This document shows, one piece after another, positions 4,298 through 40,388 of a DNA stretch of 64,000 nucleotides. The DNA comes from Eunapius fragilis (Eukaryota > Porifera > Demospongiae > Spongillida > Spongillidae): assembly GCA_963681505.1 (NCBI GenBank), contig OY811978.1:2744248-2808247 (forward strand), in the 5' to 3' direction. The notes below the pieces were generated by a model. The model saw only the letters and a list, made by a program, of their open reading frames with translations, searched no databases and was not told where the DNA came from. The number at the start of each line of letters is the position of its first letter. Positions within the stretch are counted from its first letter, which is position 1. A program made the position numbers and the translations under genes.

Positions 4298-4570
4298 ATG
4301 GACGATATAGATAAGTCCACGGAAATACTACCTTTACGCGAGCCCAACAGCGACTTCGGATCTCTATGGATCAACCCGTCAGACAAGGACCCTACAGGAG
4401 TAAGTTAAAAATGCCAGAGCCGGCGCCGGTGAGAGGTTGTTACCCCGAGCGTCAATGATGAGCGACACACTTTTGGGGAAAGTATTTATGCCCTTCATCG
4501 CCTCACATGCATGTTTGTGTTTGTTTGTATTGCACATCGACTCAGAGAAGTTCCTGTGTTCCGTGGAGCT

Positions 4571-4604
<34 letters not shown>

Positions 4605-7068
4605 CGGGTTCACCCCACTGGGCATACTGGAACTGCTCATCGTGGTTTCCGGCTTTTGTCCACAAAAGTCAAACCTGACAATTTTAATTTTACGCGCGTT
4701 CAAGTAAAAATGAAAATGTGGAGAAGAAAGGCTAAGGGCCAAGGGAACTCATCATTTTAAAATTCCACAAATTATCCACCCGTGCTCATGTAAACATATT
4801 CATTTGATTTACGCTATGTGCATGCACTATATACCAGCCACTATTTTCTAGGCTTCACCTTTTACCCCCTAGGATATGGCTTTCATCACTCACATAACAC
4901 TAGACCCTCCCTCCCTCAGCTAAAATTTTTTATATTGGCTGTGGTTCCATCTGGTGGCTTGCTTGGGGACAGTGGCTTTGCAATGGTTTTAATGTAATGC
5001 AGTGTGCCCTTGGAGAGGAGTGGGCATGTGATGGTGGGTGTGCCCTTAGGGAGGGGTGTGTGACATTTGGTGTTGCCTTAGAGAGGAGGGGTGCGATGGT
5101 GGGCACAGCAGAATTCAATGGATAACATCTTTACAATCAGATAAGCAAAACACAATTACCTGGTATATGTTAGTTGTAATTCAAAACTTAACCACCAAAT
5201 AAGCAACCAGCCTGTAAGGTTTTTCAATGCTATATCACTGATTAACATGATATATATTTTCTACCTATGGAGTTTGATGTTACAGGCAAGGCAGTGCAAG
5301 TATGTGAGAAATGGCTGCTTCGACCGTACCGTGGAGCATTGATGTTGGTGAGCATTATCTGGAACACGGTGCTAATTATCAGAAAATTCTCTTAGCTTGG
5401 GTGGTTGAACTTTTGTGATGGGGAAAGCAACCTTGGAGTGCTACCTCAAGCCATTGTTGTCGCAGCATACCTTTGTATCATTGTGGCAACGTTTATACTT
5501 CAAGCCCTGGTGTGCTTTCAGCGAGATGTTGTAAGTGCCAATATCATTCCTCCTATCATACAAGCTTGCAATACAAATTTAACCTTCCACCCGTTTTAGC
5601 TTTTCCTTGCTGAAGAGGTGTGCATTGCCAATAAAACTGTGGACGTTGATCGCATCTGCTGTCAGAGGCACATAGTCACTGCTTTCATTGTTCCCGACGT
5701 GCTCATTCTAATGTCCTATGTGTTTGGCTTATACCTCTTCTCCAGTGCAGAGACAGAGTATCTCTCAAAGCTTGCTGCAGAGGTAGGGCATGACTAATCT
5801 TTGTTGCCAGGACAGGGTAGTGAAAATATTGCCCTGTGCGTAGGTATTTATTAAGACATCACGTGCAACTGGAGGAAAATTTCCAAAAAAGCTGATAACA
5901 ATGATAGGGTAAAGCAATTACTATCCGCCTTCAGTTTTGTTTAACATTTTCTTCTCAGGATATATTTTGCAGTTGGAATTGCCTGGGTCATTTTCTCCTT
6001 TGTTCTGAGAATATTATACTTGATAGCATTCAAATACTGGGACGCTGACATCATGGTATTTTGGAGCGACTCATTGCAGTAAGAAAAAATTAATAGCAGA
6101 CTTTGCAGTGCTTAATTTATTCTTTCATTGTCAGAATTGGGGGATCAACAAAACGTGGCTTAATAATGATATCCGTCATTGGGTTCATTTTCTTTGATAT
6201 GGTCTACACTGCCTCCATTATCAACTATGCCATTCAAAGTGAACTGAATGTGCATCTGCTTAAAGCCATATCCAGATTAACTGATAATAGATTGTATGAT
6301 AACTTGGATGAAAGCTATAAAGTGCGTGAGCAGTTCTGTTACCAACTGGTTTGCTATTGAGATTAAAATGCAGGACATAAAAAATGCAGAGAGCTATCTC
6401 CAGGTGTTAAATGGAAAGACAGCCACTGGAGTATCCCTTGTGGTTTTCAAATTGAGTATTTCCTCCATCACTGGTGAGTGCAGAAAACTTGCACCACAAT
6501 AGGGATACCTCCAGCGTGTGTACGTGTATTGATGTGTGTGTGTGTGTGTCCTTTATTACACAGCTCTGCAGCAGCTAGACCAGCTTACAAGTGGTGAAGC
6601 ACTCACCCCTCATAACTTTTCACTCAGTCTTGTAGTGGCCTCGTTGAATGCTCTCCTGTGGATCATAATGATCATATTTGCATTCGTTCAGGTATTATTG
6701 TGCACACATACCTGTACATTGCTAAAAAAAAAGGAGGCTTGCAATTTTTATTTCATACAGGCATCAAGGGTAACTGGTGCAGGCCTCCAGCTAAGGAACA
6801 GTGGGGTGCACATAAGGTCGCGCCCATTTCAGTACACAAACACTCCTCAGTCAGAGTTGGATAGCTTTGTCCTGTATATGCATGCTTTGAAGCTGAAGGT
6901 AAGTCACTGGCCCCCTCCCAACCATTATTGACAGATTAAAACCTTCAGGCCAAGCTGTTTGGTGTGCCCATTCTACCATGGATCATGTACACAGCCGCAG
7001 TTTTCATTTCTTTCTTTTTAATCGTCATGATTAAAACGGACCTCTACAACCCTTTTCCCAATGTTTAA
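4298..7068 (+). CDS. Multipass (about 7-TM) membrane protein, copy A of tandem trio
   Basis: Eleven exons: 4298-4399, 5273-5347, 5396-5530, 5600-5782, 5844-5908, 5959-6078, 6135-6321, 6374-6473, 6564-6691, 6761-6898, 6949-7068. All are GT-AG and phases agree; the 1353 coding bases give 450 residues. Exon 1 (MDDIDKSTEILPLREP...) is cytosolic-looking. Hydrophobic helices: QAIVVAAYLCIIVATFILQA (exon 3), DVLILMSYVFGLYLF (4), AVGIAWVIFSFVLRILYLIA (6), ISVIGFIFFDMVYTASIINY (7), a weak one GVSLVVFKLSISSI (8), VVASLNALLWIIMIIFAF (9) and WIMYTAAVFISFFLIVMI (11). A loop of about 50 residues with SELDSFVLYMHALKLK joins the last two. No family is certain. The layout, phase-0 introns at both borders of exon 10, and the helix-ending tail resemble gustatory-receptor-like proteins (inference). 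Exon 2 uses the acceptor CTATGGAG, because the nearer TTACAG acceptor would give a stop. Confidence 0.75.
4571..4604. repeat. Poly-G run in intron 1 of copy A
   Basis: Thirty-four consecutive G. Copies B and C carry shorter runs at the same intron position (22621-22644 and 37927-37946), so the tract predates the triplication and has changed length since. Confidence 0.95.
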
Positions 7069-7085
7069 TATTGGAACTTTCCCTT

Positions 7086-7646
7086 TGTCAGGGCTCACAG
7101 TCTGCCCTGATAATGGATGAATAGAAAAGAATCTCTATGAGGACCCTTTGTTAGATTGTTCTATATAAATGTGTATTCGGGGTCTTGCATGGGAGGTGTG
7201 GATTATCTAGCAGCTGGAGGAGAAGGAGCAGCTTGGCGGCGCTAGCACGAGCGGCGCGCATGCTGCGGCTAGATCGGTCCTTCACATATGGTGGCAGCGG
7301 TGGGATCCATCCCTGACAGTTGTGCAGGGAGACCCATGGATCCGGAATGAGTGCGGTGATGGGACAGATCGAGGTGGACCTAAGAAGGAAGGCTGGCAGC
7401 ATATCCAAAAGTGGTAGACCTGAGGGTAGCCGGCTAGAGAGAGAAGTCTATAGCGGTACGGTACTCAAAAGTGGAGAACCTGAGGATGCATGGTGCAGCT
7501 GTTCCCGAACGCAGGAAGACCTTAATCCGTTGCCATCATGCATGGTATACGGGCGGAGTGACTGTGCGGAAAGATGTATGTGAGCGGGCGCTGAAGAGGG
7601 CCATGGGAATACGCAATCGACAAACAGCCCCGGATCCAGCATAAGC

Positions 7647-7648
<2 letters not shown>
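7086..7648 (+). mobile_element. LTR-like end plus retrotransposon leader fragment
   Basis: Begins TGTCAGGG, with a TATA-like CTATATAAA near 7162, and ends CTTCACA at 7286. It is followed two bases later by TGGTGGCAGCGGTGGGAT, which resembles the primer-binding/leader start after LTRs of gypsy-type elements. No second LTR or pol sequence follows, and the element stops in a poly-G tract. It lies 18 bases after the stop of gene A, so it may supply that gene's 3' UTR. The same fragment follows genes B and C, so it was inserted before the triplication. Confidence 0.5.
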
Positions 7649-7677
<29 letters not shown>

Positions 7678-7678
7678 G
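7649..7678. repeat. Poly-G run
   Basis: Thirty consecutive G. Equivalent runs are 25760-25774 (15 G) and 41666-41687 (22 G). In the third block the triplication homology ends at this tract. Confidence 0.95.
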
Positions 7679-7684
7679 CGGCCA

Positions 7685-7886
7685 CTGCTAAAAGGCGGCG
7701 ATATGAAGAGGACCTCGAGGGAAACCGCGCTGCTAACAGGCAGAAATACGAGGACAATTCAGCTGCCATTAAAGCATCTAAAAGGCGGAGTCGGTATTGG
7801 AATGACCCCGCTGTCCGATTGGCTAAATGTGCTTCCGAGAGGACGCGGTACCGCTGGGGTCACAGAACTACCACTACCACCCAAAG
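7685..7886 (+). pseudogene. Exon-like fragment of a basic Arg/Lys-repeat protein
   Basis: An open frame (KRRRYEEDLEGNRAANRQKY, later KRRSRYWNDPAVRLAK) runs to a good donor, CCCAAAG|GTATGT. The pattern RYxxxPxxxR(A/S)xxR recurs every 12-15 residues or so and reappears, differently spelled, near 55,880-56,260. The block-2 copy (about 25,780-25,972) has a ten-base deletion that shifts the frame, which argues against a functional exon there. Function unknown; possibly the N-terminal region of a transposon-encoded or DNA-associated protein. Confidence 0.4.
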
Positions 7887-7950
7887 GTATGTTATGGCAT
7901 GTTGTAGGCTATTAACATTAAAAAGCTGTGCATGCATAATTTGTACAGTA

Positions 7951-8034
7951 TAGTCGGGCGGCCCTACTACCGCGTTTGGTCGGGCTTGTCACCCTACTAC
8001 CTGACCAAACGCGGTAGTAGGGCCCGCCCCACTA
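7951..8034. repeat. Long near-perfect hairpin
   Basis: Arms of about 31 bases (TAGTCGGGCGGCCCTACTAC ... and its complement) enclose a 21-base loop, with a one-base bulge. The duplicate at 26035-26122 is slightly more complete (CATAGT...ACTATG). No ORF. It could be a foldback MITE or a transcribed hairpin. Confidence 0.8.
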
Positions 8035-8385
8035 TGTACAGCACGGATCTGCACAAAACCATTCACTAAGGCATGCATGGTGACTCAACTGTATGTACAG
8101 TAGATTGTTTTAATCTGATAAGGCTTCCTTACTATCGATCTACACTGAGCCATGTATTGTTCACTTCCTGAGTTCCCACACTATCCATCTATACGCAAGT
8201 CGGCTACACCTCCATGTTTAAATGGGAGCATTTTTACTGGATCAAATTTGACCGATAGATTTTTAGCACAACTGACACACGTACACCCCTTCCCTCCCTG
8301 ATGATGGAATTGGACCAATTATAGCACAGTCTACACACGTGTTAAGGCTTTGCAAGGTATAAAAGTCATTCACCCGCTGAATAGT
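8035..8385. other. Non-coding, shared with block 2
   Basis: No gene recognised. Sequence is almost identical to 26123-26471; the homology breaks at GAATAGTG, where block 2 jumps to the equivalent of 11127. Confidence 0.6.
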
Positions 8386-13742: not shown

Positions 13743-14711
13743 TTGCACAATCTCCATCTTCAGCAGGCAGTTACGGCCTATAACTCCAAAGTCGCCTCTC
13801 ATAACGCAATCACGGTTGAGTCTGTCCTTGCTTCTCCCATTCCTCAGAGAGAGCTTTCCAGCAAGATTGATGAGGAGCAATTCAAGTCTTTATTAGAAGC
13901 TTCCTCCCCAGCCAACAAGGCCCGACTGCTGTCTATATCAGCCCCTCATTCACCTTCATGGCTGTCAGTGGTCCCTTCCAAGGGCTTAGGTTTACATATG
14001 GAGCCCAATGAGTTCCAGATCGCGTTGAGGTGGTGGTTAGGTGAGGGTGTTGGTAGATCTGTGTGTCCCTTTTGCCCAGAGGTTGCCCTTGATCCCCTGG
14101 GTCACCATGCTGCAACATGCAGGCATGGGGAAGATGTGGTGGTTAGGCATAATCACTTGCGTGATGTCATTGTTGATTTCTGTCGGCGAGCTCATCTAAG
14201 TGTGACCGTGGAGAAGGGCCATGGTCTTACCAGGGACCACAACCACACCAGACCTGCTGATGTGCTCATTGCAGGTTGGGACAGAGGAAAGCCTGCAGCG
14301 TTTGACGTCACAGTAACGTCACCTCTCTGCCCAGCCATACTGAGGGATTCATGTCGAATGTCTGGTGCAGCTTCTACAGCAGCGGAGACCCGTAAGCTAC
14401 TCAGCAACGGCCCCAAATGTCAAGAATTGGGGTGAACTTGCATTCCCTTAGCGGTGGAGACCTTCTGCAACTGGGGTAAGGAGGCACACCTCACTTTCTC
14501 TAGGTTGGCATCCCACCTTGCCATCAGCATGTCCTCTCCCAAACCTTCCATCTTGGCAGACATTTACGGCAGGTTGAATATCACTTTGGCTAGATCCATT
14601 GCCAGAGCCATCCTGGCATGGGAGCACCAGATCTAGTGACTTGTCTTTGTTTGTGTGTGTCATTGCAGTCATGTATTATTGTTGTAATTATAAATAATAA
14701 TAATAATAATT
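13743..14711 (+). mobile_element. 5'-truncated non-LTR retroelement, RLE-type C-terminus (L1, block 1)
   Basis: Encodes only the C-terminal part of a retroelement protein. Visible are CPFCPEVALDPLGHHAATC (a C-x2-C / HH-C zinc motif), RHNHLRD, RPADVLIAGWDRGKPAAFD (the Pro-Asp ... Asp spacing of restriction-like endonucleases), and the terminal PLAVET ... ARAIL block. A Trp codon has become TGA at 14433-14435, so the ORF is broken. A short 3' UTR ends in ATAATAATAATAATAAT (14689-14711). The RT domain is absent. R2/R4/Dong-like affinity is inferred from the endonuclease motif and the TAA tail. Confidence 0.7.
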
Positions 14712-15014
14712 ACAAAGGGGCAATGCTGCCTCCATCCTAGGAACACTTTTTTCACCTTATACTACTGATTTTTAAGGTTATTATAATAGTGATAATAAAT
14801 GTGTATTTATTACTGTTTATGTATTGTTTTTTACAGTATTATTACTTTTATTATTATTTTTTGTACTAATTCTTATTTTAATAATAATGCACATAGTCAG
14901 AAGGGAGCACAAATACGCATATATACATAATACACACCAACATATTATTATTATTTAACTAAAGTCAGAAGGGATCATTAAAAAAAAAAAAAAAAAAAAA
15001 ATAATAATAATAAT
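14712..15014. other. Block-1-specific insert between TAA tracts
   Basis: AT-rich sequence with no ORF, bounded by (TAA)n on the left and poly-A/(TAA)n on the right. In block 2 the same interval instead holds a longer retroelement (30030-30967), showing different insertions into the same TAA tail. TCAGAAGGGA(G/T)CA occurs twice inside. Confidence 0.5.
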
Positions 15015-15763
15015 AGTCCCTTCCACTGGCTTGGACCTGCACCTTGACAATGCAGAGTGTCAGGTTGCCCTTAGATGGTGGCTGGGTCTTGACACCTCAG
15101 GAGGTTCCACTTGCCCTTTTTGCCCTGACACTGCCCTGGACCCACTAGGTCACCATGCAGCCACGTGCAGACATGGTGGGAATATGGTTTCACAGCATAA
15201 TCATTTGCGTGACATTTTTGCAGACTTCTGTCGCCGGGCCCACCTCTCTGTTAAGGTTGAAGCGGGATATGGCTTATCTAGAGACCATATCAACTCCCGG
15301 CCTGCAGACATTCTAGTTCAAAGTTGGGACAGAGGAAAGCCAGCAGCCTTTGATGTCACAGTTGCCTCACCTCTCACTCCTGCTGTCCTGAACGAAGCTA
15401 GCATTTCTGCAGGGGCAGCAGCCTACGGGGCAGAAAATAGGAAACATGCCACTAATGACACAAGGTGCCAGGAGTTGGGGTGGATGTGTATTCCCCTGGC
15501 AGTTGAATTGTATGGAAACTGAGGGAAGGAAGCACAGTGCGTATTTTCACGTTTGGCATCCCTACTTGCTGTCAGCCAGTCCAGTTTCAAACCCAAAATG
15601 GTTGCTGAAATTTATGGACGCCTCAACCTGTCACTTGTGAGGTCTGTGGCAAGGGCCATCATGGGAAGGGAGTTAGCTCATGAATAGACTTTTTGTTTAG
15701 TTTACAATAGTGTAGTGTATTGTAGTTAGTTCTTTGTTCTTGTGAGTGGTGTGCTATTCATGT

Positions 15764-17330: not shown

Positions 17331-17483
17331 AGTGTACCAATCGCTTCAGGATGCGTCCGCAGGTTATCTTCGGGGGTCTGTTAGACGCCTAACTGTTCGG
17401 GCAATTAACTAAAGCGAATAGTACCTCATTTGGTATTCGGTTAAAAATACCCAATTACATCAGCTAGCTATTTTTAATTTAAA

Positions 17484-17765
17484 AAGTAAATAAAAACATT
17501 CTCTACGAGAAAGTTGGTGGGATATAGGATTTGATTATGACATAGGTGGAGTAAAAAGCAAGGAAACAAGGTCTTATCAGAAGGGAAAATGTCATAGTCC
17601 TATACTTAGCACATTTCTAGGGCATGTGTTGTTTGTGTGCTAAATATAGGACTATGACATTTTCCCTTCTGATAAGACCTTGTTTCCTTGCTTTTTACTC
17701 CACCTATGTCATAATCAAATCCTATATCCCACCAACTTTCTCGTAGAGAATGTTTTTATTTACTT
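17484..17765. mobile_element. Foldback MITE (M3)
   Basis: 282 bases, almost a perfect palindrome: both arms of about 120 bases read AAGTAAATAAAAACATTCTC, hairpin TTCTC-TAC-GAGAA, then ATATAGGATTTGATTATG. The central spacer is about 40 bases. It is absent from block 2, which lacks 17480-18350. Confidence 0.9.
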
Positions 17766-17806
17766 GTTTTCTTTATTTTTTTTCATACCCATTTAATTAT
17801 ACGACA

Positions 17807-19685: not shown

Positions 19686-19970
19686 AACAAGTGTAAAAAT
19701 ATTCTCTATGCGAGAAGGTTGGTGGTATATAGGAATCAAAGGCGGTGGTGGTGTAAAAAGCAAGGGAACAAGGATTGTGATTGAAAAGGAAAAATGAAAT
19801 AGACCTATATTAGCAAACACAGTTAAGCATGACGACATGCTGCTAATATAGGTCTATTTCATTTTTCCTTTTCAATCACAATCCTTGTTCCCTTGCTTTT
19901 TACACCACCACCGCCTTTGATTCCTATATACCACCAACCTTCTCGCATAGAGAATATATTTATCACTTAT
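19686..19970. mobile_element. Foldback MITE (M4, block 1)
   Basis: Left end ACAAGTGTAAAAATATTCTC, hairpin TTCTC-TATGC-GAGAA, GGTATATAGGAATCAAAGG; the right half is its inverse. It sits directly against the TGTAAACAGGATC that precedes exon 1 at 19993. In block 2 only its left half survives (35164-35351), cut by a deletion. Confidence 0.85.
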
Positions 19971-19992: not shown

Positions 19993-20094
19993 ATGGACGA
20001 TATAGATAAGTCCACGGAAATACTACCTTTACGCGAACCCAACAGCGACTTCGGATCTCTATGGATCAACCCTTCAGACAAGGACCCTACAGGA
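19993..20094 (+). CDS. Extra first exon (copy 1 upstream of gene B)
   Basis: Open 34-codon exon starting MDDIDKSTEILPLREPNSDF and ending with GGA|GTAAGT, identical in design to exon 1 of gene A. No gene body follows directly; the next exons lie at gene B (23360 onward), past two more first exons. It could be an alternative first exon or a duplication by-product. Confidence 0.6.
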
Positions 20095-20540
20095 GTAAGT
20101 TTAAAATGCCAGGCCGACGCCGGTGAGAGGTTGTTACCCCGAGCGTCAAAGATAAGCGACACACCATTGGGGAAAGTATATATGCCCTTGATCGCCTCAC
20201 ATGCATGTTTGTGTTTGTTTGTAATTCATGTGGACTCAGTGAACGCAATGCTTTCAAAAACGTTGCGTTCATTCGTGGAAGTCCTCTATGGTTTTATTAG
20301 CTAGTTCGGCTTTGCCCGACCTTAGCGTCTCTAACTACATACATCTTTGGTTCTCGCTGCAACGGAGATTGCAGTCCAATCAGAATGCAGCATTTCAATA
20401 CAGGCAATTGTCTCTTAATAAGTGTATCCAGGCCGCATGTATTTAGTTATTCATCGACAAAAAGTTTATAATGTGTAACCGAGGTGGCTATGGAGCTAGG
20501 CTACCCTTTTTAACAACTCGATGTAGCTGGCTCTAGTTAA

Positions 20541-20999
20541 TAGACCTTTTTTTTTTTTTTTTTCTGAATGGCCTGTAAGAACTTAGTGAATTATCGTTCA
20601 AAACACTTAATTTAATATAGTATGGTTTGTGTAAGGCTAGCTTCATTCCTTAAGACATGTATGTTTTTTAAATTCGCTCGGTGTATTCTACGACGGTTTC
20701 TGCACTGGGAGATTATGTTTTGAACCCTTCGTATACCCGTCTTAGAGAAGGAGTATGAATGAAATACACAAATGTCGGGAAACGACACGTCAGGCCAACG
20801 AGAGGGGTTGTAGTCCCAAGCATCTTTTGGAGTCATGTGCGGATCTGTTGTTATGCCTAGCATACCAAGTTTTTCATTATAGCGTGACTTCCCGACTGCA
20901 TCAAGCTGCTAACGGCGACGCCTTTCTCAATAAACAATCAATCATGTCACATGCAAGTCACGCAATAATTTATTCATAATTGCGGTCGAATAAGGTCTA
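20541..20999. mobile_element. Insertion with TAGACCTT inverted ends
   Basis: Ends TAGACCTTTTT and AAGGTCTA. It interrupts GTTAA/TAAGGCAG, which is continuous in the other exon-1 units (for example near 21970). A fragment of its right part remains in block 2 (35352-35411). No coding sequence recognised. Confidence 0.6.
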
Positions 21000-21403
21000 T
21001 AAGGCAGGACTCCACGAGTTTTGGAAAATGCTTGCTAGCAAGTAGCGTTAAAATAGTGAAAAAAGAAACTAGCGAGGGTTATTCCATGCATTCGGTCTCC
21101 CGCGCCATGCACCAGGTACAGGTACGAACATGTACGGTGCCGGCTCGCAACAGCGGAAAAGTCACACAGCCACACCCAAACATTTTGCGGTTGCTGCATG
21201 CTTGCGGTTTGTCTATACACAATGGCGCGTCTTGTCGCTCATTGACCGAAACAGTTTATCTCACTTACAGTTATTGTTTTATATATAAATATATTGGCAA
21301 ACACATTGTACGCCAATACAATTGTTATACTAGTGTGCTATGAACTAATGGAACGGCACAACTTTTACATGGGTACGAGGCATCCTGAATGTAAATGTGA
21401 GAA

Positions 21404-21505
21404 ATGGACGATATAGATAAATCCACGGAAAGGCTACCTTTACGCGAGCCCAACAGCGACTTCGGATCTCTGCGGATCAACTCTTCAGACAAGGACACTA
21501 CAGGA
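21404..21505 (+). CDS. Extra first exon (copy 2 upstream of gene B)
   Basis: Intact 34-codon copy (MDDIDKSTERLPLREPNSDF) with donor GGAGTAAGT. It is 948 bases from the next copy at 22352, defining the tandem unit. An antisense frame (21498-21818) repeated in the other units is attributed to the recent duplication. Confidence 0.6.
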
Positions 21506-22351
21506 GTAAGTTAAAAATGCCAGGCCGACGCCGGTAAGAGGTTGTTATACCCCAAGCGTCAAAGATGAGCGACACACCTTTGGGGAAAGTATATATGCCC
21601 TTGATCGCCTCACATGCATGTTTGTGTTTGTTGTTTGTTTGTATTGCACGTCGACTCAGTGAACACAATGCTTTCAAAAACGTTGCGTTCATTTCGTCGA
21701 AATCCTCTATGGTTTTATTAGCTATAGTTCGGCGTTGCCCGATCTTAGCGTCTATAACTATACATTCATCTTTGGTTCTCGCTGCAACGGAGATTGCAGT
21801 CCAATCAGAATGCAGCATTTCAATACGCGAATTGTCTCTTAATTAGTGTATCCATGCAGGCCGCATGTATTTATTTATTCATAGACAAAAAGTTTATAAT
21901 GTGCAACCGATCGAGGTGGCTATGGAGCTAGGCTACCCTTTTAAACAACTCGATGTAGCTGGCTCCAGTTAATAAGGCAGGACTCCCCGAGTTTTGGAAA
22001 ATGCTTGCTAGCAAGTAGCGTTAAAATAGTGAAAAAAGAAACTAGCGAGGGTTATTTCATGCATTCAGTCTCCCGCGCCACCAGGTACAGGTAATACGAA
22101 CATGTAAGGTACCGGCTCGCAACAGCGGGAAAGTCACACAGCCACACCCAAACATTTTGCTGCTTGCGGTTTGTCTATATACACAATGGCGCGTCTTGTC
22201 GCTCATTGACCGAAACAATTAATCTCACTTACAATTATTGTTTTTTATACAAATATATAGGCATACACATTGTACGCCAATACAATTGTTATTCTAGTGT
22301 GCTGTGAACTAATGGAACGGCACAACTATTACATGGGACGAGAATGTATAA

Positions 22352-24634
22352 ATGGACGATATAGATAAATCCACGGAAATATTACCTTTACGCGAGCTCA
22401 ACAGCGACTTCGGACCTCTGCGGATCAACCCTTCCGACAAGGACCATACAGGAGTAAGTTTAAAATGCCAGGCCGACGCCGGTGAGAGGTTGTTATACCC
22501 CAAGCGTCAAAGATAAGCGACACACCTTTGGGGAAAGTATATATGCCCTTGATCGCATGTTTTGTTTGTTTGTATTGCACGTCGACTCAGTGAAGTCCTG
22601 TGTTCCACGGTGGGTGGGGAGGGGGGGGGGGGGGGGGGGGGGGGATCACCCCACTGGGCATTTACAGTATTTACTGGTACTGCTCATTGTCGTTTCCGGC
22701 TTTTGTGAACAAAAGTAAAACCTGACTATTTTAATTTTACGCGCGTTCAAATAAAAATGAAGAAAGCAAAGCATAAGGGCCAAGGCAACTCAACATTTTT
22801 TTAAAATTCCACAAGTTATTATCCACCCGTGCTCATGTAAACATATTCATTTGATTTACGCTATTGTGCATGCACTATATACCAGCCACTATTTTCTGGC
22901 TTCCCCCTTTACCCCCTAGTCACACAGGATATGGATTTCACTCACATAATATCATAGCCTCCCTCCCTCCCCCCCTCCCAAACTTCATTCTAGTGTCATT
23001 GACCACACCCTAATACTAGCTATTATGAATATTGCTGGTTGGTTCCATCTGGTGGCTTGCTTGAAATAAGGCGCTTTGCAATGGTTTTAATGTAATGCAG
23101 TGTGCACTTAGGGAGGCATGGGCATGTGATGGTGGGTGTGCCCTTAGGGAGAGGCGTGTGATGGTTGGTGTGCCCTTAGGGAGGAGGGGGTGCGATGGTG
23201 GGCACAGCAGAATTCAATGGATAGCATTCAAATTCATTACAATAAGCAAACACAATTACCTGATATATGTTGTAATGCAAAACTTAACCACCAAATAACC
23301 AACCGCCCTGAAAGTTTTTTCAATGCGATATCACTGATATATAGTTCCTACCTATGGAGTTCGTCGATGTTACAGGCAAGGCAGTGCAAGTATGTGAGAA
23401 ATGGCTGCTTCGACCATACCGTAGAGCATTGATGTTGGTGAGCATTATCTGGAACACGGTGCTAATTATCAGAAAATTCTCTTAGCTTGGGTGGCTGAAC
23501 TTTTGTGATGGGGAATGCAACCTTGGCGTGCTACGTCAAGCCATTGTTGTCGCAGCATACCTTTGTATCATTGTGGCAACGTTTATACTTCAAGCCCTGG
23601 TGTGCTTTCAGCGAGATGTTGTAAGTGCCAATATCATTCCTCCTATCATACAAGCTTGCAATACAAATTTAACCTTCCACCCGTTTTAGCTTTTCCTTGC
23701 TGAAGAGGTGTGCATTGCCAATAAAACTGTGGACGTTGATCGCATCTGCTGTCAGAGGCACATAGTCACTGCTTTCATTGTTCCCGATGTGCTCATTCTA
23801 ATGTCCTATGTGTTTGGCTTATACCTCTTCTCCAGAGCAGAGACAGAGAATCTCTCAAAGCTTGCTGCAGAGGTAGGGCATGACTAATCTTTGTTGCCAG
23901 GACAGGGTAGTGAAAATATTGCCCTGTGTGTAGGTATTTATTAAGACATCACGTGCAACTGGAGGAAAATTTCCAAAGAAGCTGATAATAATGATAGGGT
24001 GAAGCAATTACTATCCTTCAGTTTTGTTTAACATTTTCTTCTCAGGATATATTTTGCAGTTGGAATTGCCTGGGTCATTTTCTCCTTTGTTCTGAGAATA
24101 TTATACTTGGTAGCATTCAAATACTGGGATGCTGACATCATGGTATTTTGGAGTGACTCATTGCAGTAAGAAAGAATAATAGCAGATTTTTGCAGTGCTT
24201 AATTTATTCTTTCATTGGCAGAATTGGAGGATCAACAAAACGTGGCTTAATAATGATATCCATCATTGGGTTCATTTTCTTTGATATGGTCTACACTGCC
24301 TCCATTATCAACTATGCCATTCAAAGTGAACTGAATGTGCATCTGCTTAAAGCCATATCCAGATTAATTGATAATAGGTTGTATGATAACTTGGATGAAA
24401 GCTATATAGTGAGTGAGCAGTTCTGTTACCAACTGCTTTGCTATTGAGATTAAAATGCAGGAAATAAAAGATGCAGAGAGCTGTCTCCAGGTGTTAAATA
24501 GAAAGACAGCCACTGGAGTATCCCTTGTGGTTTTCAAATTGAGTATTTCCTCCATCACTGGTGAGTGGAGAAAACTTGCACCATCACCATGATATATAGG
24601 GATACCTCCAGCGTGTGCACATGTACTGATGTGT

Positions 24635-24678
<44 letters not shown>

Positions 24679-25192
24679 TTTATTACACAGCTCTGCAGCA
24701 GCTAGACCAGCTTACAAGTGGTGAAGCACTCACCCCTCATAACTTTTCACTCAGTCTTGTAGTGGCCTCGTTGAATGCTCTCCTGTGGATCATAATGATC
24801 ATATTTGCATTCGTTCAGGTATTATTGTGCACACATACCTGTACATTGCTAAAAAAAAAAGGAGGCTTGTTTTATTTCATGCAGGCATCAAGGGTAACAA
24901 GTGCAGGCCTCCAGCTAAGGAACAGTGGGGTGCACATAAGGTCGCGCCCATTTCAGTATACAAACACTCCTCAGTCAGAGTTGGATAGCTTTGTCCTGTA
25001 TTTGCATGCTTTGAAGCTGAAGGTAAGTCACTGGCCCCCTCCCAACCATTATTGACAGATTAAAAACTTCAGGCCAAGCTGTTTGGTGTGCCCATTCTAC
25101 CATGGATGATGTACACAGCCGCAGTTTTCATTTCTTTCTTTTTAATTTTCATGATTAAAACGGACCTCTACAACCCTTTTCCCAATGTTTAA
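22352..25192 (+). CDS. Multipass (about 7-TM) membrane protein, copy B
   Basis: Exons 22352-22453, 23360-23437, 23486-23620, 23690-23872, 23934-23998, 24046-24165, 24222-24408, 24461-24560, 24691-24818, 24885-25022, 25073-25192. The 1356 bases give 451 residues. Exon lengths equal those of copy A, except exon 2, which has one extra in-frame codon (FVDV against FDV). Differences from A are mainly substitutions such as Ser to Cys (exon 3), Lys to Ile at the end of exon 7 and Tyr to Cys in exon 8, with no stops or shifts. Intron 1 holds 24 G (22621-22644) and intron 8 a (TG)n tract. Preservation of frame across eleven exons supports a functional paralogue. Two further first exons lie upstream. 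Confidence 0.75.
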
Positions 25193-29074: not shown

Positions 29075-30029
29075 TTGCACAATCTTCATCTTCAGCAGGC
29101 AGTTACGGCCTATAACTCCAAAGTCGCCACTCATAACGCAATCACGGTTGAGTCTGTCCTTGCTTCTCCCATTCCTCAGAGAGAGCTTTCCAGCAAGATT
29201 GATGAGGAGCAATTCAAGTCTTTATTAGAAGCTTCCTCTCCAGCCAACAAGGCCCGACTGCTGTCTATATCAGCCCCTCATTCACCTTCATGGCTGTCAG
29301 TGGTCCCTTCCAAGGGCTTAGGTTTACATATGGAGCCCAATGAGTTCCAGATCGCGTTGAGGTGGTGGTTAGGTGAGGGTGTTGGTAGATCTGTGTGTCC
29401 CTTTTGCCCAGAGGTTGCCCTTGATCCCCTGGGTCACCATGCTGCAACATGCAGGCATGGGGAAGATGTGGTGGTTAGGCATAATCACTTGCGTGATGTC
29501 ATTGTTGATTTCTGTCGGCGAGCTCATCTAAGTGTGACCGTGGAGAAGGGCCATGATCTTACCAAGGACCACAACCACACCAGACCTGCTGATGTGCTCA
29601 TTGCAGGTTGGGACAGAGGAAAGCCTGCAGCGTTTGACGTCACAGTAACGTCACCTCTCTGCCCAGCCATACTGAGGGATTCATGTCGAATGTCTGGTGC
29701 AGCTTCTACAGCAGCGGAGACCTGTAAGCTACTCAGCAACGGCCCCAAATGTCAAGAATTGGGGTGGGCTTGCATTCCCTTAGCGGTGGAGACCTTCTGC
29801 AACTGGGGTAAGGAGGCACACCTCACTTTCTCTAGGTTGGCATCCCACCTTGCCATCAGCATCTCCCAAACCTTCCATCTTGGCAGACATTTACGGCAGG
29901 TTGAATATCACTTTGGCTAGATCCATTGCCAGAGCCATCTTGGCATGGGAGCACCAGATCTAGTGACTTGTCTTTGTTTGTGTGTGTCATTGCAGTCATG
30001 TATTATTGTTGTAATTATAAATAATAATA
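29075..30029 (+). mobile_element. 5'-truncated non-LTR retroelement (L1, block 2)
   Basis: Same insertion as 13743. The Trp codon lost in block 1 is intact here (GGGTGGGCT, about 29762), but a five-base loss near 29863 shifts the frame before the terminal block. The two copies therefore decayed independently after duplication. A (TAA)n tail follows and is itself interrupted by the next element. Confidence 0.7.
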
Positions 30030-30933
30030 ACTTTAATGCCATTACAGTCAGTTCTGCTCTGGAGTTTCCCATTCACCAGAAGGTCTTGTCAGGATTGATC
30101 GAAACCCAACATTTCCACATCTTGTTGGAATCCTCCTCTCCAGCTAACAGAGCTCGCCTCCTGTCAGTGGCTGCTCCTCATGCTTCCTCTTGGCTATCAG
30201 TGGTCCCTTCCCCTGGTTTGGGCTTGCACCTGGAATCGAATGAGTTCCAGATGGCTATTAGGTGGTGGCTGGGGTTAGATACTTCTGGTCGGTCCATGTG
30301 CCCATTCTGCCCCGATACTGCTCTTGATCCTCTTGGTCACCATGCTGTGACCTGCAGACATGGGGGGGATGTGGTCACACGCCATAATCGTCTACGAGAT
30401 GAGGTATTTGACCTTTGTCGTCGTGCCCACCTAAGTGTGAGTGTGGAGAGAGGTCATGGCCTTACCAGAGACCTTGCCCACACCAGACCTGCTGACATCC
30501 TCATTGCTGGCTGGGACAGAGGCAAACCTGCGGCACTAGACCTGACCATTACCTCACCACTATGCTCTGTCATCTTGGGTGAATCATGTCACCAGGCTGG
30601 TGCAGCAGCCCTGGCAGCAGAGACCCACAAGCTCCACTCCAATGGACCCAAGTGCCAAGAGTTGGGCTGGTCCTGCATCCCATTGGCAGTGGAGACTTAT
30701 GGCAATTGGGGCAAGCAGGCTCATGATACCTTCTCCAGGCTGGCATCCTTCCTAGCCATTCACCAGTCTTCCCCCAAGGCAGTAGTTGTGGCTGAAATTT
30801 ATGGCCGGTTGAATGTGGTCCTGGTTCGGTCCATTGCTAGAGCCATCCTGGCCAGGGAGCTTCCACCCTCCTAACTTGCTTTTAGTAGTTTAATTGCGTA
30901 TACTCTGTGTATCAATATATATATTGGTGAGAG

Positions 30934-30966
<33 letters not shown>

Positions 30967-30967
30967 T
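30030..30967 (+). mobile_element. Non-LTR retroelement, longest open fragment (block 2 only)
   Basis: Open from the TAA tract (where the frame reads INNNN) to a stop at 30872-30874, about 280 element-derived residues. Motifs in order: SSPANRARLLSVAAPHASSW, RWWLGLDTSGRSMCPFCPDT, GHHAVTCRHGGDVVTRHN, RPADILIAGWDRGKPAALD, KCQELGWSCIPLAVETYGNW, IYGRLN, ARAILARE. It lacks RT, so it is 5' truncated. It ends in a 30-base (TAA)n. It is absent from block 1, so it inserted after duplication or was lost there. Confidence 0.75.
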
Positions 30968-31040
30968 TATCCTGCTGTAACTGTATTCTGTATTCCATTA
31001 ATAATAATAATAATAAAAAATAATAATAATAATAATAATA

Positions 31041-31801
31041 GTCCCTTCCACTGGCTTGGACCTGCACCTTGACAATGCAGAGTGTCAGGTTGCCCTTAGA
31101 TGGTGGCTGGGTCTTGACACCTCAGGAGGTTCCACATGCCCTTTTTGCCCTGCCCTGGACCCACTAGGTCACCATGCAGCCACTTGCAGACATGGTGGGA
31201 ATGTGGTTTCACGGCATAATCATTTGCGTGACATTTTTGCAGACTTCTGTCGCCGGGCCCACCTCTCTGTTAAGGTTGACGCAGGATATGGCTTATCTAG
31301 GGACCATATTAACTCCCGGCCTGCAGACATTCTAGTTCAAAGTTGGGACAGAGGAAAGCCAGCACCCTTTGATGTCACAGTTGCCTCACCTCTCACTCCT
31401 GCTGTCCTGAACGAAGCTAGCATTTCTGCAGGGGCAGCAGCCTACGGGGCAGAAAATAGGAAACATGCCACTAATGACACAAGGTGCCAGGAGTTGGGGT
31501 GGATGTGTATTCCCCTGGCAGTTGAATTGTATGGAAACTGAGGGAAGGAAGCACAGTGCGTATTTTCACGTTTGGCATCCCTACTTGCTGTCAGCCAGTC
31601 CAGTTTCAAACCCAAAATGGTTGCTGAAATTTATGGACGCCTCAACCTGTCACTTGTGAGGTTTGTGGCAAGGGCCATCATGGGAAGGGAGTTAGCTCAT
31701 GAATAGACTTTTTGTTTAGTTTACAATAGTGTAGTGTATTGTAGTTAGTTCTTTGTTCTTGTGAGTGGTGTACTATTCATGTATTAATAATAATAATAAT
31801 A
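31041..31801 (+). mobile_element. 5'-truncated non-LTR retroelement (L2, block 2)
   Basis: Same insertion as 15015, with a six-base in-frame deletion next to CPFCP and the shared NWG stop. Preceded by (TAA)n with an A-rich interruption and ended by (TAA)n, into which the next fragment is inserted. Confidence 0.7.
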
Positions 31802-33690: not shown

Positions 33691-35163
33691 AAGTGTACCA
33701 ATCACTTCAGGATGCGTCCGCAGGTTATCTTCGGGGGTCTGTTAGACGCCTAACTGTTCGGGCAATTTACTAAAGCGAATAGTACCTCATTTGGTATTCG
33801 GTTAAAAATACCCAATTACATCAGCTAGCTATTTTTAATTTAATAATAGCCGCGTGTCGTGGGCGTGATTCAAATTCTTAATATTCCCGCACGCTGTGGA
33901 AGAGGTATACGCACTGAATCTAGAGCCCTTTAGGGTCCCTACAGCGCCATGTATAAATGTCCAACCATAATGCCAAATGGTTGAGAAACGGAATGGAGCA
34001 GTGATATGTGATTCAAGGTATCATTTTCTGCATGACGCCTGTGCGTTACTCTCAACTCTATCATTCGTTACGCAGCTTGAAATGAAAGCCTAAACTACCA
34101 ATGATACACGTAAGTACCCGACACTATCGCATATAATTGTTTTGACCGAATTGATTTCTATACTATAGCTTCTTATATAGCATAACTTTCGAATTCTGTC
34201 GGTGGAACTACATACGCGATCAGATACTACGGTATACAGTCTACAGCAGATATATGTGAAGCAAGAGGCTCCAATTAGAATGTGTCTCCCCACACCACCA
34301 CCCTTACTGAAAAAAAAAAAAACCCGGCAACAACTAGCCACTCGTACACCTACAGATGTGCCAAACGAGTGCAATACAAGACACGACAAGGTGTCAAATG
34401 CGCTACTGAAAGGACCAACAAAGCGACCACCCGAAGGTGCGTTGCACCATGAATGTTGGATCTGGACATAAATTGTAGCATGTATAGTGTATCGCTAAAA
34501 TATTTTATGCAACAGTTACAGCGGAAGATACTGTTGTCTGAAATGTGTGCACGCCGTTCGTTTCGTAATTGTGGTGCATAGTTTATATCTGATAATAGTG
34601 TCAAAGTTGCGCGTGCATGATGTGTATTGTGGTGCATAATTTATATCTGATAATAGTGTCAAAGTTGCTGACGACAACGTATTGTGGCATGGTTTATCTG
34701 ACTGATAACAGCGTGAGATCAGTGGGTACATGTCTGATGTATTATATGGCTTCGCTTGCCAGTGGAGGATTTGTTTTAACTAACGGTTGTTTAAATCAGG
34801 TCCAGGTCCAGGAGTCACTCCACATCCAGGTCCAGGAGTGGTTCCATGTCCAGCTGCAGGATTAGCTTTACCTGCTCTACCTGCTGTATATCCTGGATAC
34901 AGAAGTATATCCTGATCCAGAATATACAGCATGCAGTATACCCTGATCCAGGATATACAAGATGACACGCTCCTGGGTTTCATTATAGCTATACTTGTAC
35001 TTATTGTTTAAATAGTAATACTGTGTATTTTAATGGTACACCCACACCTCAACAAAATTGCATGGCCGCGAGATTCTAAAATAAAACTGTCATTTGACAT
35101 TCTTGCTACATGGTTACGTTTCAAGAACTAAATACAATACTAAATCCACCAAAAAATGTAGGA
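33691..35163. other. Unrecognised sequence, block 2
   Basis: Counterpart of 17331-19685 minus the 17480-18350 segment (joint at AATTTAATAATAGCC). No supported gene. Confidence 0.4.
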
Positions 35164-35411
35164 AACAAGTGTAAAAATATTCTCTATGCGAGAAGGTTGG
35201 TGGTATATAGGAATCAAAGGCCGTGGTGGTGTAAAAAGCAAGGGAACAAGGATTGTGATTGAAAAGGAAAAATGAAATAGACCTATATTAGCAAACACAG
35301 TTAAACATGACGACATGCTGCTAATATAGGTCTATTTCATTTTTCCTTTTCATGTCACATGCAAGTCGTCACGCAATAATTTATTCATAATTGCGGTCGA
35401 ATAAGGTCTAT
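35164..35411. mobile_element. Half of MITE M4 fused to remnant of the TAGACCTT insertion
   Basis: 35164-35351 matches 19686-19874 and then jumps to the equivalent of 20943, removing the first exon present at 19993 in block 1. A clear deletion joint (TTTTCATGTCACATG). Confidence 0.75.
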
Positions 35412-35773
35412 AAGGCAGTACTCCACGAGTTTTGGAAAATGCTTGCTAGCAAGTAGCGTTAAAATAGTGAAAAAAGAAACTAGCGAGGGTTATTCCATGC
35501 ATTCAGTCTCCCGCGCCATGCACCAGGTACAGGTACGAACATGTACGGTACCGGCTCGCAACAGCGGAAAAGTCACACAGCCACACCCAAACATTTTGCG
35601 GTTGCTGCTTGCGGTTTGTCTATACACAATGGCGCGTCTTGTCGCTCATTGACCGAAACAGTTTATTTATTGTTTTATATACAAATATAAATTGTTTTAC
35701 TAGTGTGCTATGAACTAATGGAACGGCACAACTTTTACATGGGTACGAGGCATCCTGAATGTAAATGTGAGAA

Positions 35774-35875
35774 ATGGACGATATAGATAAATCCACGGAA
35801 AGCCTACCTTTACGCGAGCCCAACAGGGACTTCGGATCTCTGCCGATCAACCCTTCAGACAAGGACACTACAGGA
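35774..35875 (+). CDS. Extra first exon (copy 1 upstream of gene C)
   Basis: Intact 34 codons (MDDIDKSTESLPLREPNRDF) with donor GGAGTAAGT. Corresponds to 21404. Confidence 0.6.
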
Positions 35876-36708
35876 GTAAGTTAAAAATGCCAGGCCGACG
35901 CCGGTAAGAGGTTGTTATACCCCAAGCGTCAAAGATGAGCGACACACCTTTGGGGAAAGTATATATGCCCTTGATCGCCTCACATGCATGTTTGTGTTTG
36001 TTGTTAGTTTGTATTGCACGTCGACTCAGTGAACACAATGCTTTCAAAAACGTTGCGTTCATTTCGTGGAAATCCTCTATGGTTTTATTAGCTATAGTTC
36101 GGCGTTGCCCGACCTTAGCGTCTATAACTATACATTCATCTTTGGTTCTCGCTGCAGCGGAGATTGCAGTCCAATCAGAATGCAGCATTTCAATACGGGA
36201 ATTGTCTCTTAATTAGTGTATCCATGCAGGCCGCATGTATTTATTTATTCATAGACAAAAAGTTTATAATGTGCAACCGATCGAGGTGGCTATGGAGCTA
36301 GGCTACCCTTTTAAACAACTCGATGTAGCTGGCTCCAGTTAATAAGGCAGGACCCCCCGAGTTTTGGAAAATGCTTGCTAGCAAGTAGCGTTAAAATAGT
36401 GAAAAAAGAAACTAGCGAGGGTTATTTCATGCATTCAGTCTCCCGCGCCACCAGGTACAGGTAATACGAACATGTAAGGTACCACCGGCTCGCAACAGCG
36501 GAAAAGTCACACAGCCACACCCAAACATTTTGCTGCTTGCGGTTTGTCTATACACAATGGCGCGTCTTGTCGCTCATTGACCGAAACAATTAATCTCACT
36601 TCGTTATTGTTTTTTATACAAATATATAGGCATACACATTGTACGCCAATATACAATTGTTATACTAGTGTGCTATGATACGAGACATCCTGAATGTAAA
36701 TGTGAGAA

Positions 36709-36810
36709 ATGGACGATATAGATAAATCCACGGAAAGGCTACCTTTACGCGAGCCCAACAGCGACTTCGGATCTCTGCGGATCAACTCTTCAGACAAGGA
36801 CACTACAGGA
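36709..36810 (+). CDS. Extra first exon (copy 2 upstream of gene C)
   Basis: Intact 34 codons, same coding sequence type as 21404. Spaced 935 bases from the previous and 949 from the next copy, giving a tandem unit of about 940 bases. Confidence 0.6.
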
Positions 36811-37657
36811 GTAAGTTAAAAATGCCAGGCCGACGCCGGTAAGAGGTTGTTATACCCCAAGCGTCAAAGATAAGCGACACACCTTTGGGGAAAGTATATA
36901 TGCCCTTGATCGCCTCACATGCATGTTTGTGTTTGTTGTTTGTTTGTATTGCACGTCGACTCAGTGAACACAATGCTTTCAAAAACGCTGCGTTCATTTC
37001 GTGGAAATCCTCTATGGTTTTATTAGCTATAGTTCGGCGTTGCCCGACCTTAGCGTCTATAACTATACATTCATCTTTGGTTCTCGCTGCAGCGGAGATT
37101 GCAGTCCAATCAGAATTCAGCATTTCAATACGGGAATTGTCTCTTAATTAGTGTATCCATGCAGGCCGCATGTATTTATTTATTCATAGACAAAAAGTTT
37201 ATAATGTGCAACCGATCGAGGTGGCTATGGAGCTAGGCTACCCTTTTAAACAACTCGATGTAGCTGGCTCCAGTTAATAAGGCAGGACCCCCCGAGTTTT
37301 GGAAAATGCTTGCTAAGCCTAAGTAGCGTTAAAATAGTGAAAAAAGAAACTAGCGAGGGTTTTTTCATGCATTCAGTCTCCCGCGCCACCAGGTACAGGT
37401 AATACGAACATGTAAGGTACCGGCTCGCAACAGCGGAAAAGTCACACAGCCACACCCAAACATTTTGCTGCTTGCGGTTTGTCTATACACAATGGCGCGT
37501 CTTGTCGCTCATTGACCGAAACAATTAATCTCACTTACAATTATTGTTTTTTATACAAATATATAGGCATACACATTGTACGCCAATACAATTGTTATTC
37601 TAGTGTGCTGTGAACTAATGGAACGGCACAACTATTACATGGGACGAGAATGTATAA

Positions 37658-39829
37658 ATGGACGATATAGATAAATCCACGGAAATATTACCTTTACGCG
37701 AGCTCAACAGCGACTTCGGACCTCTATGGATCAACCCTTCCGACAAGGACCATACAGGAGTAAGTTAAAAATGCCAGGCCGACGCCGGTGAGAGGTTGTT
37801 ATACCCCAAGCGTCAAAGATAAGCGACACACCTTTGGGGAAAGTATATATGCCCTTGATCGCATGTTTTGTTTGTTTGTATTGCACGTCGACTCAGTGAA
37901 GTCCTGTGTTCCACGGTGGGTGGGGAGGGGGGGGGGGGGGGGGGGGATCACCCCACTGGGCATTTACAGTATTTACTGGTACTGCTCATTGTCGTTTCCG
38001 GCTTTTGTGAACAAAAGTAAAACCTGCATGACTATTTTAATTTTACGCGCGTTCAAGTAAAAATGAAGAAAGCAAAGCATAAGGGCCAAGGCAACTCAAC
38101 ATTTTTTTAAAATTCCACAAGTTATTTCACTCACATAATATCATAGCCTCCCTCCCTCCCCCCCTCCCCCCCTCCCAAACTTCATTCTAGTGTCATTGAC
38201 CACACCCTAATACTAGCTATTATGAATATTGCTGGTTGGTTCCATCTGGTGGCTTGCTTGAAATAAGGCGCTTTGCAATGGTTTTAATGTAATGCAGTGT
38301 GCACTTAGGGAGGCATGGGCATGTGATGGTGGGTGTGCCCTTAGGGAGAGGCGTGTGATGGTTGGTGTGCCCTTAGGGAGGAGGGGGTGCGATGGTGGGC
38401 ACAGCAGAATTCAATGGATAGCATTCAAATTCATTACAATAAGCAAACACAATTACCTGATATATGCTGTAATGCAAAACTTAACCACCAAATAACCAAC
38501 CGCCCTGAAAGTTTTTTCAATGTGATATCACTGATATATAGTTCCTACCTATGGAGTTCGTCGATGTTACAGGCAAGGCAGTGCAAGTATGTGAGAAATG
38601 GCTGCTTCGACCATACCGTAGAGCATTGATGTTGGTGAGCATTATCTGGAACACGGTGCTAATTATCAGAAAATTCTCTTAGCTTGGGTGGCTGAACTTT
38701 TGTGATGGGGAATGCAACCTTGGCGTGCTACGTCAAGCCATTGTTGTCGCAGCATACCTTTGTATCATTGTGGCAACGTTTATACTTCAAGCCCTGGTGT
38801 GCTTTCAGCGAGATGTTGTAAGTGCCAATATCATTCCTCCTATCATACAAGCTTGCAATACAATTTTAACCTTCCACCCGTTTTAGCTTTTCCTTGCTGA
38901 AGAGGTGTGCATTGCCAATAAAACTGTGGACGTTGATCGCATCTGCTGTCAGAGGCACATAGTCACTGCTTTCATTGTTCCTGACGTGCTCATTCTAATG
39001 TCCTATGTGTTTGGCTTATACCTCTTCTCCAGAGCAGAGACAGAGAATCTCTCAAAGCTTGCTTCAGAGGTAGGGCATGACTAATCTTTGTTGCCTGGAC
39101 AGGGTAGTGGATTAAAATATTGCCCTGTGTGTAGGTATTTATTAAGACATCACGTGCAACTGGAGGAAAATTTCCAAAGAAGCTGATAACAATGATAGGG
39201 TGAAGCAATTACTATCCTTCAGTTTTGTTTAACATTTTCTTCTCAGGATATATTTTGCAGTTGGAATTGCCTGGGTCATTTTCTCCTTTGTTCTGAGAAT
39301 ATTATACTTGGTAGCATTCAAATACTGGGATGCTGACATCATGGTATTTTGGAGTGACTCATTGCAGTAAGAAAGAATAATAGCAGATTTTTGCAGTGCT
39401 TAATTTATTCTTTCATTGGCAGAATTGGAGGATCAACAAAACGTGGCTTAATAATGATATCCATCATTGGGTTCATTTTCTTTGATATGGTCTACACTGC
39501 CTCCATTATCAACTATGCCATTCAAAGTGAACTGAATGTGCATCTGCTTAAAGCCATATCCAGATTAATTGATAATAGGTTGTATGATAACTTGGATGAA
39601 AGCTATAAAGTGAGTGAGCAGTTCTGTTACCAACTGCTTTGCTATTGAGATTAAAACGCAGGACATAAAAAATGCAGAGAGCTATCTCCAGGTGTTAAAT
39701 AGAAAGACAGCCACTGGAGTATCCCTTGTGGTTTTCAAATTGAGTATTTCCTCCATCACTGGTGAGTGGAGAAAACTTGCACCATCACCATGATATATAG
39801 GGATACCTCCAGCGTGTGCACATGTACTG

Positions 39830-39877
<48 letters not shown>

Positions 39878-40388
39878 TTTATTACACAGCTCTGCAGCAG
39901 CTAGACCAGCTTACAAGTGGTGAAGCACTCACCCCTCATAACTTTTCACTCAGTCTTGTAGTGGCCTCGTTGAATGCTCTCCTGTGGATCATAATGATCA
40001 TATTTGCATTCGTTCAGGTATTATTGTGCACACATACCTGTACATTGCTAAAAAAAGGAGGCTTGTTTTATTTCATGCAGGCATCAAGGGTAACAAGTGC
40101 AGGCCTCCAGCTAAGGAACAGTGGGGTGCACATAAGGTCGCGCCCATTTCAGTATACAAACACTCCTCAGTCAGAGTTGGATAGCTTTGTCCTGTATTTG
40201 CATGCTTTGAAGCTGAAGGTAAGTCACTGGCCCCCTCCCAACCATTATTGACAGATTAAAAACTTCAGGCCAAGCTGTTTGGTGTGCCCATTCTACCATG
40301 GATGATGTACACAGCCGCAGTTTTCATTTCTTTCTTTTTAATCATCATGATTAAAACGGACCTCTACAACCCTTTTCCCAATGTTTAA
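37658..40388 (+). CDS. Multipass (about 7-TM) membrane protein, copy C
   Basis: Exons 37658-37759, 38557-38634, 38683-38817, 38887-39069, 39135-39199, 39247-39366, 39423-39609, 39662-39761, 39890-40017, 40081-40218, 40269-40388; 1356 bases, 451 residues, all splice sites and phases as in copies A and B. Very close to copy B, with changes such as Ala to Ser before the end of exon 4. Intron 8 contains a longer (TG)n tract. The neighbouring LTR-like fragment begins 18 bases after the stop. The same reservations on family assignment apply as for copy A. Confidence 0.75.

Follow-up and report, generated by a model that had tools for sequence, protein, structure and literature searches.

The insect gustatory and odorant receptors (GR/OR) and the gustatory-receptor-like proteins (GRLs) of other animals form part of the 7TMIC superfamily. 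In available passages of published surveys, GRLs are recorded from protostomes, cnidarians, placozoans and some deuterostomes (PMC7746228, PMC11526382, PMC6150509), and the superfamily as a whole also from some fungi, plants and protists (PMC7746228, PMC11526382). No report of a sponge GRL was found in the literature searched, with some key papers lying outside that search. In 2015 Robertson reportedly found GRLs to be absent from the sponge Amphimedon. As a possible point against novelty, the accessible part of another paper ascribes homologues to the whole of Animalia except Chordata, with no sponge named there (PMC9998090), and Amphimedon figures in the accessible parts of two insect genome papers as an annotation resource only. 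The subject of this work is a stretch of 64,000 nucleotides from the demosponge Eunapius fragilis, hereafter the window (assembly GCA_963681505.1, contig OY811978.1, positions 2,744,248 to 2,808,247 of the forward strand, or C8:2744248-2808247 in our numbering), which carries three copies, in tandem, of a gene with 11 exons. These genes belong to a real, constrained and expanded sponge family of seven-helix proteins with the layout of GRLs. As judged from sequence comparisons, membership in the GR/OR-GRL superfamily is unproven; that these sponge genes encode genuine gustatory-receptor-like channels is given a probability slightly short of even.

The three copies occupy positions 4298-7068, 19993-25192 and 35774-40388 of the window, all on the + strand. 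Exon-by-exon reconstruction gave for each of them ten exons after exon 1, ten GT-AG introns and a single open frame to a TAA stop, reproducing the model of a first-pass annotation of the window, which had described three intact tandem copies with splice sites and frames kept. The product of copy 1 has 34 + 416 = 450 codons and those of copies 2 and 3 have 34 + 417 = 451, the copies differing in coding length by a single codon only, where exon 2 begins (75 nt in copy 1, 78 in copies 2 and 3). These counts, as well as the phase-0 introns that separate exons 9, 10 and 11, match the earlier description exactly. Between copies 2 and 3 there are 7 residue differences.

The exons of copy 1 measure 102, 75, 135, 183, 65, 120, 187, 100, 128, 138 and 120 nt, stop included. 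Exon 1 (4298..4399) has 34 codons, ends in phase 0 and is followed by the donor GTAAGT, and exon 2 (5273..5347) encodes the segment that precedes transmembrane helix 1 (TM1), KWLLRPYRGALML. The acceptor of exon 2, weak in the window copies, is supported by two relatives described below, L040 and L041, to whose AG acceptors it aligns. TM1 is encoded by exon 3 (5396..5530), whereas exon 4 (5600..5782) covers the first outer loop, with an NKT sequon, and TM2. An inner loop (exon 5, 5844..5908, 65 nt) is followed by TM3 (exon 6, 5959..6078), by TM4 and the start of a long inner loop (exon 7, 6135..6321), by the end of that loop and TM5 (exon 8, 6374..6473, 100 nt) and by TM6 (exon 9, 6564..6691). 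Exon 10 (6761..6898, 138 nt), in phase 0 on both sides, encodes the loop before the last helix, with SELDSFVLYMHALKLK, and exon 11 (6949..7068) encodes TM7, an outer tail of 11 residues and the TAA stop. Exons 2-11 of copy 2 (23360..25192) lie at 23360-23437, 23486-23620, 23690-23872, 23934-23998, 24046-24165, 24222-24408, 24461-24560, 24691-24818, 24885-25022 and 25073-25192, and those of copy 3 (38557..40388) at 38557-38634, 38683-38817, 38887-39069, 39135-39199, 39247-39366, 39423-39609, 39662-39761, 39890-40017, 40081-40218 and 40269-40388. The 48-nt intron that precedes exon 3 of copy 1 (5348-5395) removes an in-frame TAG, and its place is taken in the relatives L039, L040 and L041 by introns of 56, 71 and 62 nt; on these two grounds, its retention in the transcript was rejected.

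Outside the window, a search of the whole genome (218,937,333 bases, 24 contigs) with the spliced protein gave matches on contigs C8, C15 and C5, those within the window all on the + strand, and a second search with the family member L044 as query returned the same loci plus one fragment. These match counts are lower bounds, and the family comprises at least 14 genes. Eleven of them, three on C8, five on C15 and three on C5, were modelled by spliced alignment with a purpose-written program, which recovered copy 1 exactly as a check, and an expansion of the family within the genome is supported by these further genes. A common series of intron phases over exons 3-11 is found in 10 of the 14 genes, the three window copies and seven relatives, and its recovery in relatives elsewhere in the genome indicates that the gene structure is more than chance. 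The models are of uneven quality: the middle exons are uncertain in four of the five on C15 (C15A_1 to C15A_4), above all in C15A_1, L046 has no credible exon 2, the program having strayed there into a simple repeat, and exon 9 of L041 is split by a 36-nt gap that is read as a modelling error. The alignment used below, A1, holds 12 of the 14 models; copy 2 was left out as almost the same as copy 3, and L046 on account of the faulty model of its exon 2. Apart from copy 3, with 96%, the sequences in A1 are 27-57% identical to copy 1, and the six aligned of the seven phase-sharing relatives 30-57%. Two cysteines are invariant in this alignment, one just after TM1 and the other in the first outer loop. 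A fragment resembling the TM7 exon at C5:9189050-9189181, with two in-frame TGA codons and 45% identity to L044, is probably a gene remnant and was left uncounted.

Most gene pairs are under purifying selection, as estimated from ratios of non-synonymous to synonymous change (dN/dS) by the Nei-Gojobori method, with significance by Fisher test. Between copies 1 and 2, 13 changes are synonymous and 18 non-synonymous (dN/dS 0.40, Fisher p 0.016), and between copies 1 and 3 the counts are 12 and 14 (dN/dS 0.34, p 0.008), so that the comparison between copies suggested in the first-pass annotation does reveal constraint. For copies 2 and 3 the corresponding counts are 3 and 7 (dN/dS 0.69, p 0.70), and in this pair constraint is not visible. 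Intron divergence is 5.6% between copies 1 and 2, 5.0% between copies 1 and 3 and 0.5% between copies 2 and 3. Four wider pairs were examined, of which copy 1-L039 and L039-L040 (dS 3.17) were saturated at synonymous sites and were not used; the other two, copy 1-L041 (dN 0.307, dS 1.54) and L045-L047 (dN 0.020, dS 0.095), both give a dN/dS of about 0.2. These values indicate that the family is constrained, copies 2 and 3 being too young to tell.

For the topology, hydropathy was averaged over the 12 sequences of the alignment, and helix borders were then set by hand on copy 1. With fragments merged, the averaged profile has seven peaks. The claim of seven helices thus stands, with the refinement that the lowest values of family hydropathy are those of TM2 (1.63) and TM5 (1.70). 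Mean lengths are 43 residues for the N-terminal part counted from exon 2, 27, 36, 20, 48, 12 and 57 for the successive loops and 8 for the C-terminal tail, the inner segments (43, 36, 48 and 57) being longer than the outer ones (27, 20, 12 and 8); the long loop after helix 4 and the loop of roughly 50 residues before the last helix, both noticed earlier, average 48 and 57 residues. Mean net charge is +3.2, +1.7, +1.5 and +3.4 for the presumed inner segments and 0.0, +0.2, -1.2 and +0.5 for the outer ones. Lysines and arginines within 15 residues of the helices are more numerous on the inner side in 12 of 12 sequences (165 versus 99 in total), and N-x-S/T sequons, in counts that are not independent, number 16 on the outer side, 8 on the inner side and 6 within helices. 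The prediction is therefore of a protein with a cytoplasmic N-terminus, seven helices and an outward C-terminus.

According to Benton et al. (2020, PMC7746228), a GRL shows similarity to GRLs or no likeness to other families, has about 350-500 amino acids and seven helices, and keeps its N-terminus inside and its inner loops longer than the outer ones. In the sponge proteins, the predicted length of 450-451 amino acids, the seven helices, the inner N-terminus and the longer inner loops all agree with this description. The C-terminus predicted outside, the segment that precedes TM1 and the segment of about 57 residues before TM7 are likewise shared with the insect GR/OR and animal GRL proteins (7tm_7/7tm_6). 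In Gr genes, as stated in the available text of PMC9998090, a phase-0 intron lies just before the TM7 exon, and such an intron also precedes the TM7 exon in the window copies, where it separates exons 10 and 11, and in the modelled relatives. Another phase-0 intron follows TM6, which leaves the sponge genes with two such introns at their 3' end, unlike the three of the GR/OR and GRL group. The argument from layout made in the first-pass annotation (seven helices, long loops, a phase-0 intron before the last helix) has gained strength with the 11 further relatives. In the case of the GRLs of Cnidaria and Placozoa, the host is also a non-bilaterian and the published description of the layout is matched; those proteins differ in that they were recognised by their sequence.

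The TM7 motif (T/S)Yhhhhh(Q/K/E)(F/L/M), called diagnostic but not definitive for GRLs (PMC7746228), had not been seen in the first-pass annotation. This holds in full for its TY half, which is missing in 14 of 14 genes, the complete motif being accordingly found in 0 of 14. The other half is kept in some relatives, as TM7 ends in QF in two chromosome 5 genes, L045 and L046 (LFLSLYQF), and in KF in C15A_2 and C15A_4, so that 4 of the 14 sponge genes resemble the GR/OR and GRL proteins at this point. Other genes have a different residue before the phenylalanine (RF in C15A_1, NF in C15A_3, HF in L044 and L047), and none of the six C8 genes, window copies included, has a QF-type end. Most Drosophila Grls are described as having no recognisable TM7 motif (PMC9998090, in the part available), and one fungal GRL as retaining one of the four motif positions (PMC7746228, likewise).

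Sequence kinship is where the family departs from the GR/OR and GRL proteins, to which it has no detectable sequence or profile similarity. A single whole protein gave no match in Pfam or PDB, and its two halves gave weak matches (E 0.024, 0.091 and 0.61) that were taken as chance. A search with the 7tm_6 and 7tm_7 families, suggested in the first-pass annotation, found them in 0 of 12 members in Pfam at E values up to 10; the five other families that appeared, each with one member and at best with E 0.023, were also taken as chance, and there seems to be no convincing match to another family. A hand-typed consensus gave two weak Pfam matches (best E 0.037), neither of them to 7tm_6 or 7tm_7, and the 12-member profile had 0 matches in PDB. 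In the genome, nothing exceeded the 26.6-bit cut-off of 7tm_7, the best scores (17 and 15.3 bits) falling on C5 and away from the family loci. Profile-profile comparison with hhalign, using reference profiles of 2-5 sequences, gave probabilities below 1% against both GR and Orco; the score against Orco (20.5) was above those of reversed controls (14.3 and 14.1) and that against GR (13.1) below them (18.7 and 17.9). The best local C8-Orco match set TM7 on TM7 over 29 columns (P 0.53). In global mode, the native score was reached by 19 of 40 block-shuffled nulls for GR and by 32 of 40 for Orco, a mode that also missed the GR-Orco relationship and hence had no power. When helix orders were ranked, the native one came 1168th of 5040 with GR and 985th with Orco, compared with 54th for the known pair GR-Orco. 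Together with the missing motif and the C8 helix ends, these results weigh against a GRL identity, as does the pair formed by copies 2 and 3, and the kinship to the GR/OR superfamily that had been suggested found no significant support in Pfam, PDB profile, hhalign or helix-order comparisons. Since neither the full TM7 motif nor a 7tm_7 profile match was found, the family is not filed as a member of the GRLs.

The power of these tests is uneven. As a positive control, local hhalign with equally shallow profiles picked up the match of GR with Orco in their C-terminal third (46%, E 0.0002), and this detection, along with that by helix matching, implies that GR and Orco are closer to each other than the sponge family is to either. 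However, a 3-sequence GR profile retrieved 0 of 10 Orco/OR sequences in the same PDB set, and this failure, like that of global hhalign with GR-Orco, means that the absence of a match tells little. Pattern-based scans of IMG/VR and GTDB found 88 and 74 stretches matching the pattern, of which 0 were confirmed as relatives. Searches for PHTF gave no match in the genome, nor in any control genome, and so carry no information; neither PHTF nor DUF3537 was matched in Pfam by the 12 members.

A competing explanation, doubtful in our view and still to be taken seriously, is that of an orphan sponge family of seven-helix proteins, for instance a transporter or some other receptor, that would have reached the GR/OR topology by convergence without being related. 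No kinship test was significant, the scans of IMG/VR and GTDB ended without relatives, and the TY residues are absent throughout, as such a family would have it. However, helix number, the N-in and C-out orientation, the order of loop sizes and the phase-0 intron that precedes TM7 are as in the 7TMIC layout, QF or KF ends of TM7 persist in 4 of 14 genes, and the tests that failed had in part low power. A branch of the 7TMIC superfamily other than the GRLs, be it of the PHTF type, of the plant DUF3537 type or restricted to sponges, would also be expected to have this layout, and loss of the TM7 motif has precedents in the Drosophila and fungal proteins mentioned above; with no PHTF or DUF3537 match among the 12 members, such a branch appears improbable.

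Other readings fare worse. Sponge chemoreceptors have been proposed to be G-protein-coupled receptors (GPCRs), at least in the accessible part of PMC3447736, and the rhodopsin-family GPCR clusters of Amphimedon thus proposed resemble the present genes in being clustered and of seven helices. They differ from the sponge family described here in having the opposite predicted topology, since in all 12 sequences aligned here the lysines and arginines are distributed so as to put the N-terminus inside, and no GPCR profile (7tm_1/2/3) was matched in the Pfam searches. The motifs [ND]P..Y and [CSFT]W.P occur in 0 of 12 members, and the two occurrences of [DE]R[YFHCW] (DRH in L039, ERC in L044) look like chance. 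A divergent GPCR is thus extremely unlikely, and this reading was rejected on account of the inverted topology and the missing profile match. Very unlikely too is an array of decayed or artefactual copies, that is, pseudogenes or false assembly joins. Tandem near-identical copies can be assembly errors, and the few changes between copies 2 and 3 (3 synonymous, 7 non-synonymous) let no constraint be seen, but the three copies contain no stop or frameshift, dN is lower than dS for copy 1 versus copies 2 and 3 while their introns diverge by 5.6 and 5.0%, and constraint extends to the wider family. Given the open frames and the dN/dS of copy 1, a pseudogene array was likewise rejected.

Turning again to the GRL reading, the leading explanation, held at about even odds, is that the family works as a GRL-type ligand-gated channel. 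The product would be a protein of some 450 residues that starts in the cytoplasm, crosses the membrane seven times and ends in a short tail outside. Its subunits, probably four, would contact one another by way of two long cytoplasmic loops, those joining helices 4-5 and 6-7, and helix 7 would form the lining of a pore for cations. The channel would open when a small ligand binds between the helices near their outer ends, in a role that could be chemosensory or developmental. If the family is truly one of GRLs, this sponge branch would fill a gap in the distribution of the superfamily and be a candidate means of chemical sensing in sponges. An expanded set of chemoreceptor channels of the insect type would then exist in an animal that has no neurons, its near-identical members being served by candidate first exons in tandem. 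Otherwise, the same layout would have been reached by convergence in a seven-helix family that Pfam does not contain.

The candidate first exons deserve separate attention, since exon 1 occurs seven times for three gene bodies: once before copy 1 and three times each before copies 2 and 3. All seven have an ATG start, an open frame and the donor GTAAGT, and all lie on the + strand, at 19993..20094, 21404..21505 and 22352..22453 for copy 2 and at 35774..35875, 36709..36810 and 37658..37759 for copy 3. The first of these encodes the same 34 amino acids as that of copy 1, and its upstream sequence is unlike the others. Mean identity among the seven copies is 0.93 within the exon and 0.80 over the 250 bases upstream; on the downstream side it is 0.85 over the first 250 bases and 0.62 over the 248 that follow. 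This better conservation of the exon as compared to its flanks suggests that the copies are in use, for instance as alternative promoters, although the extra ones may possibly be leftovers of partial duplications. With candidate first exons numbering one or three per gene, tandem duplication may diversify channels that are almost identical, both in how they are expressed and in their cytoplasmic tail. In the stretches examined around other genes of the family, no relative of exon 1 was found.

The window contains other repeated sequences. Between the receptor copies, at 13743-15522 and 29075-31541, there are repeated frames with a CPFCP...DPLGHHAATCRHG pattern and DRGKPAAFDVTV, which were duplicated with the receptor unit; four of the five were scanned against Pfam, the best weak match (E 0.0085) staying below the cut-off. 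Retroelement frames at 58972-60739 contain the RNase H domain of a reverse transcriptase (PF17917, E 1.6e-37) and a weak match to an integrase core (PF13683, E 8.8e-5) below its cut-off. Tandem arrays are found at 1-595 (unit of 36 bp, 16.8 copies) and at 50715-52511 (unit of 154 bp, 11.7 copies, 97% matches). Several homopolymer runs of G or C, 28-38 bases long, are also present, among them those at 4571-4608, 7649-7678, 41742-41769 and 55994-56022. Finally, long near-perfect hairpins at 17481-17768, 56356-56646 and 19694-19962, with arms of 133, 130 and 122 nt that are 98-100% complementary, are perhaps small inverted-repeat elements.

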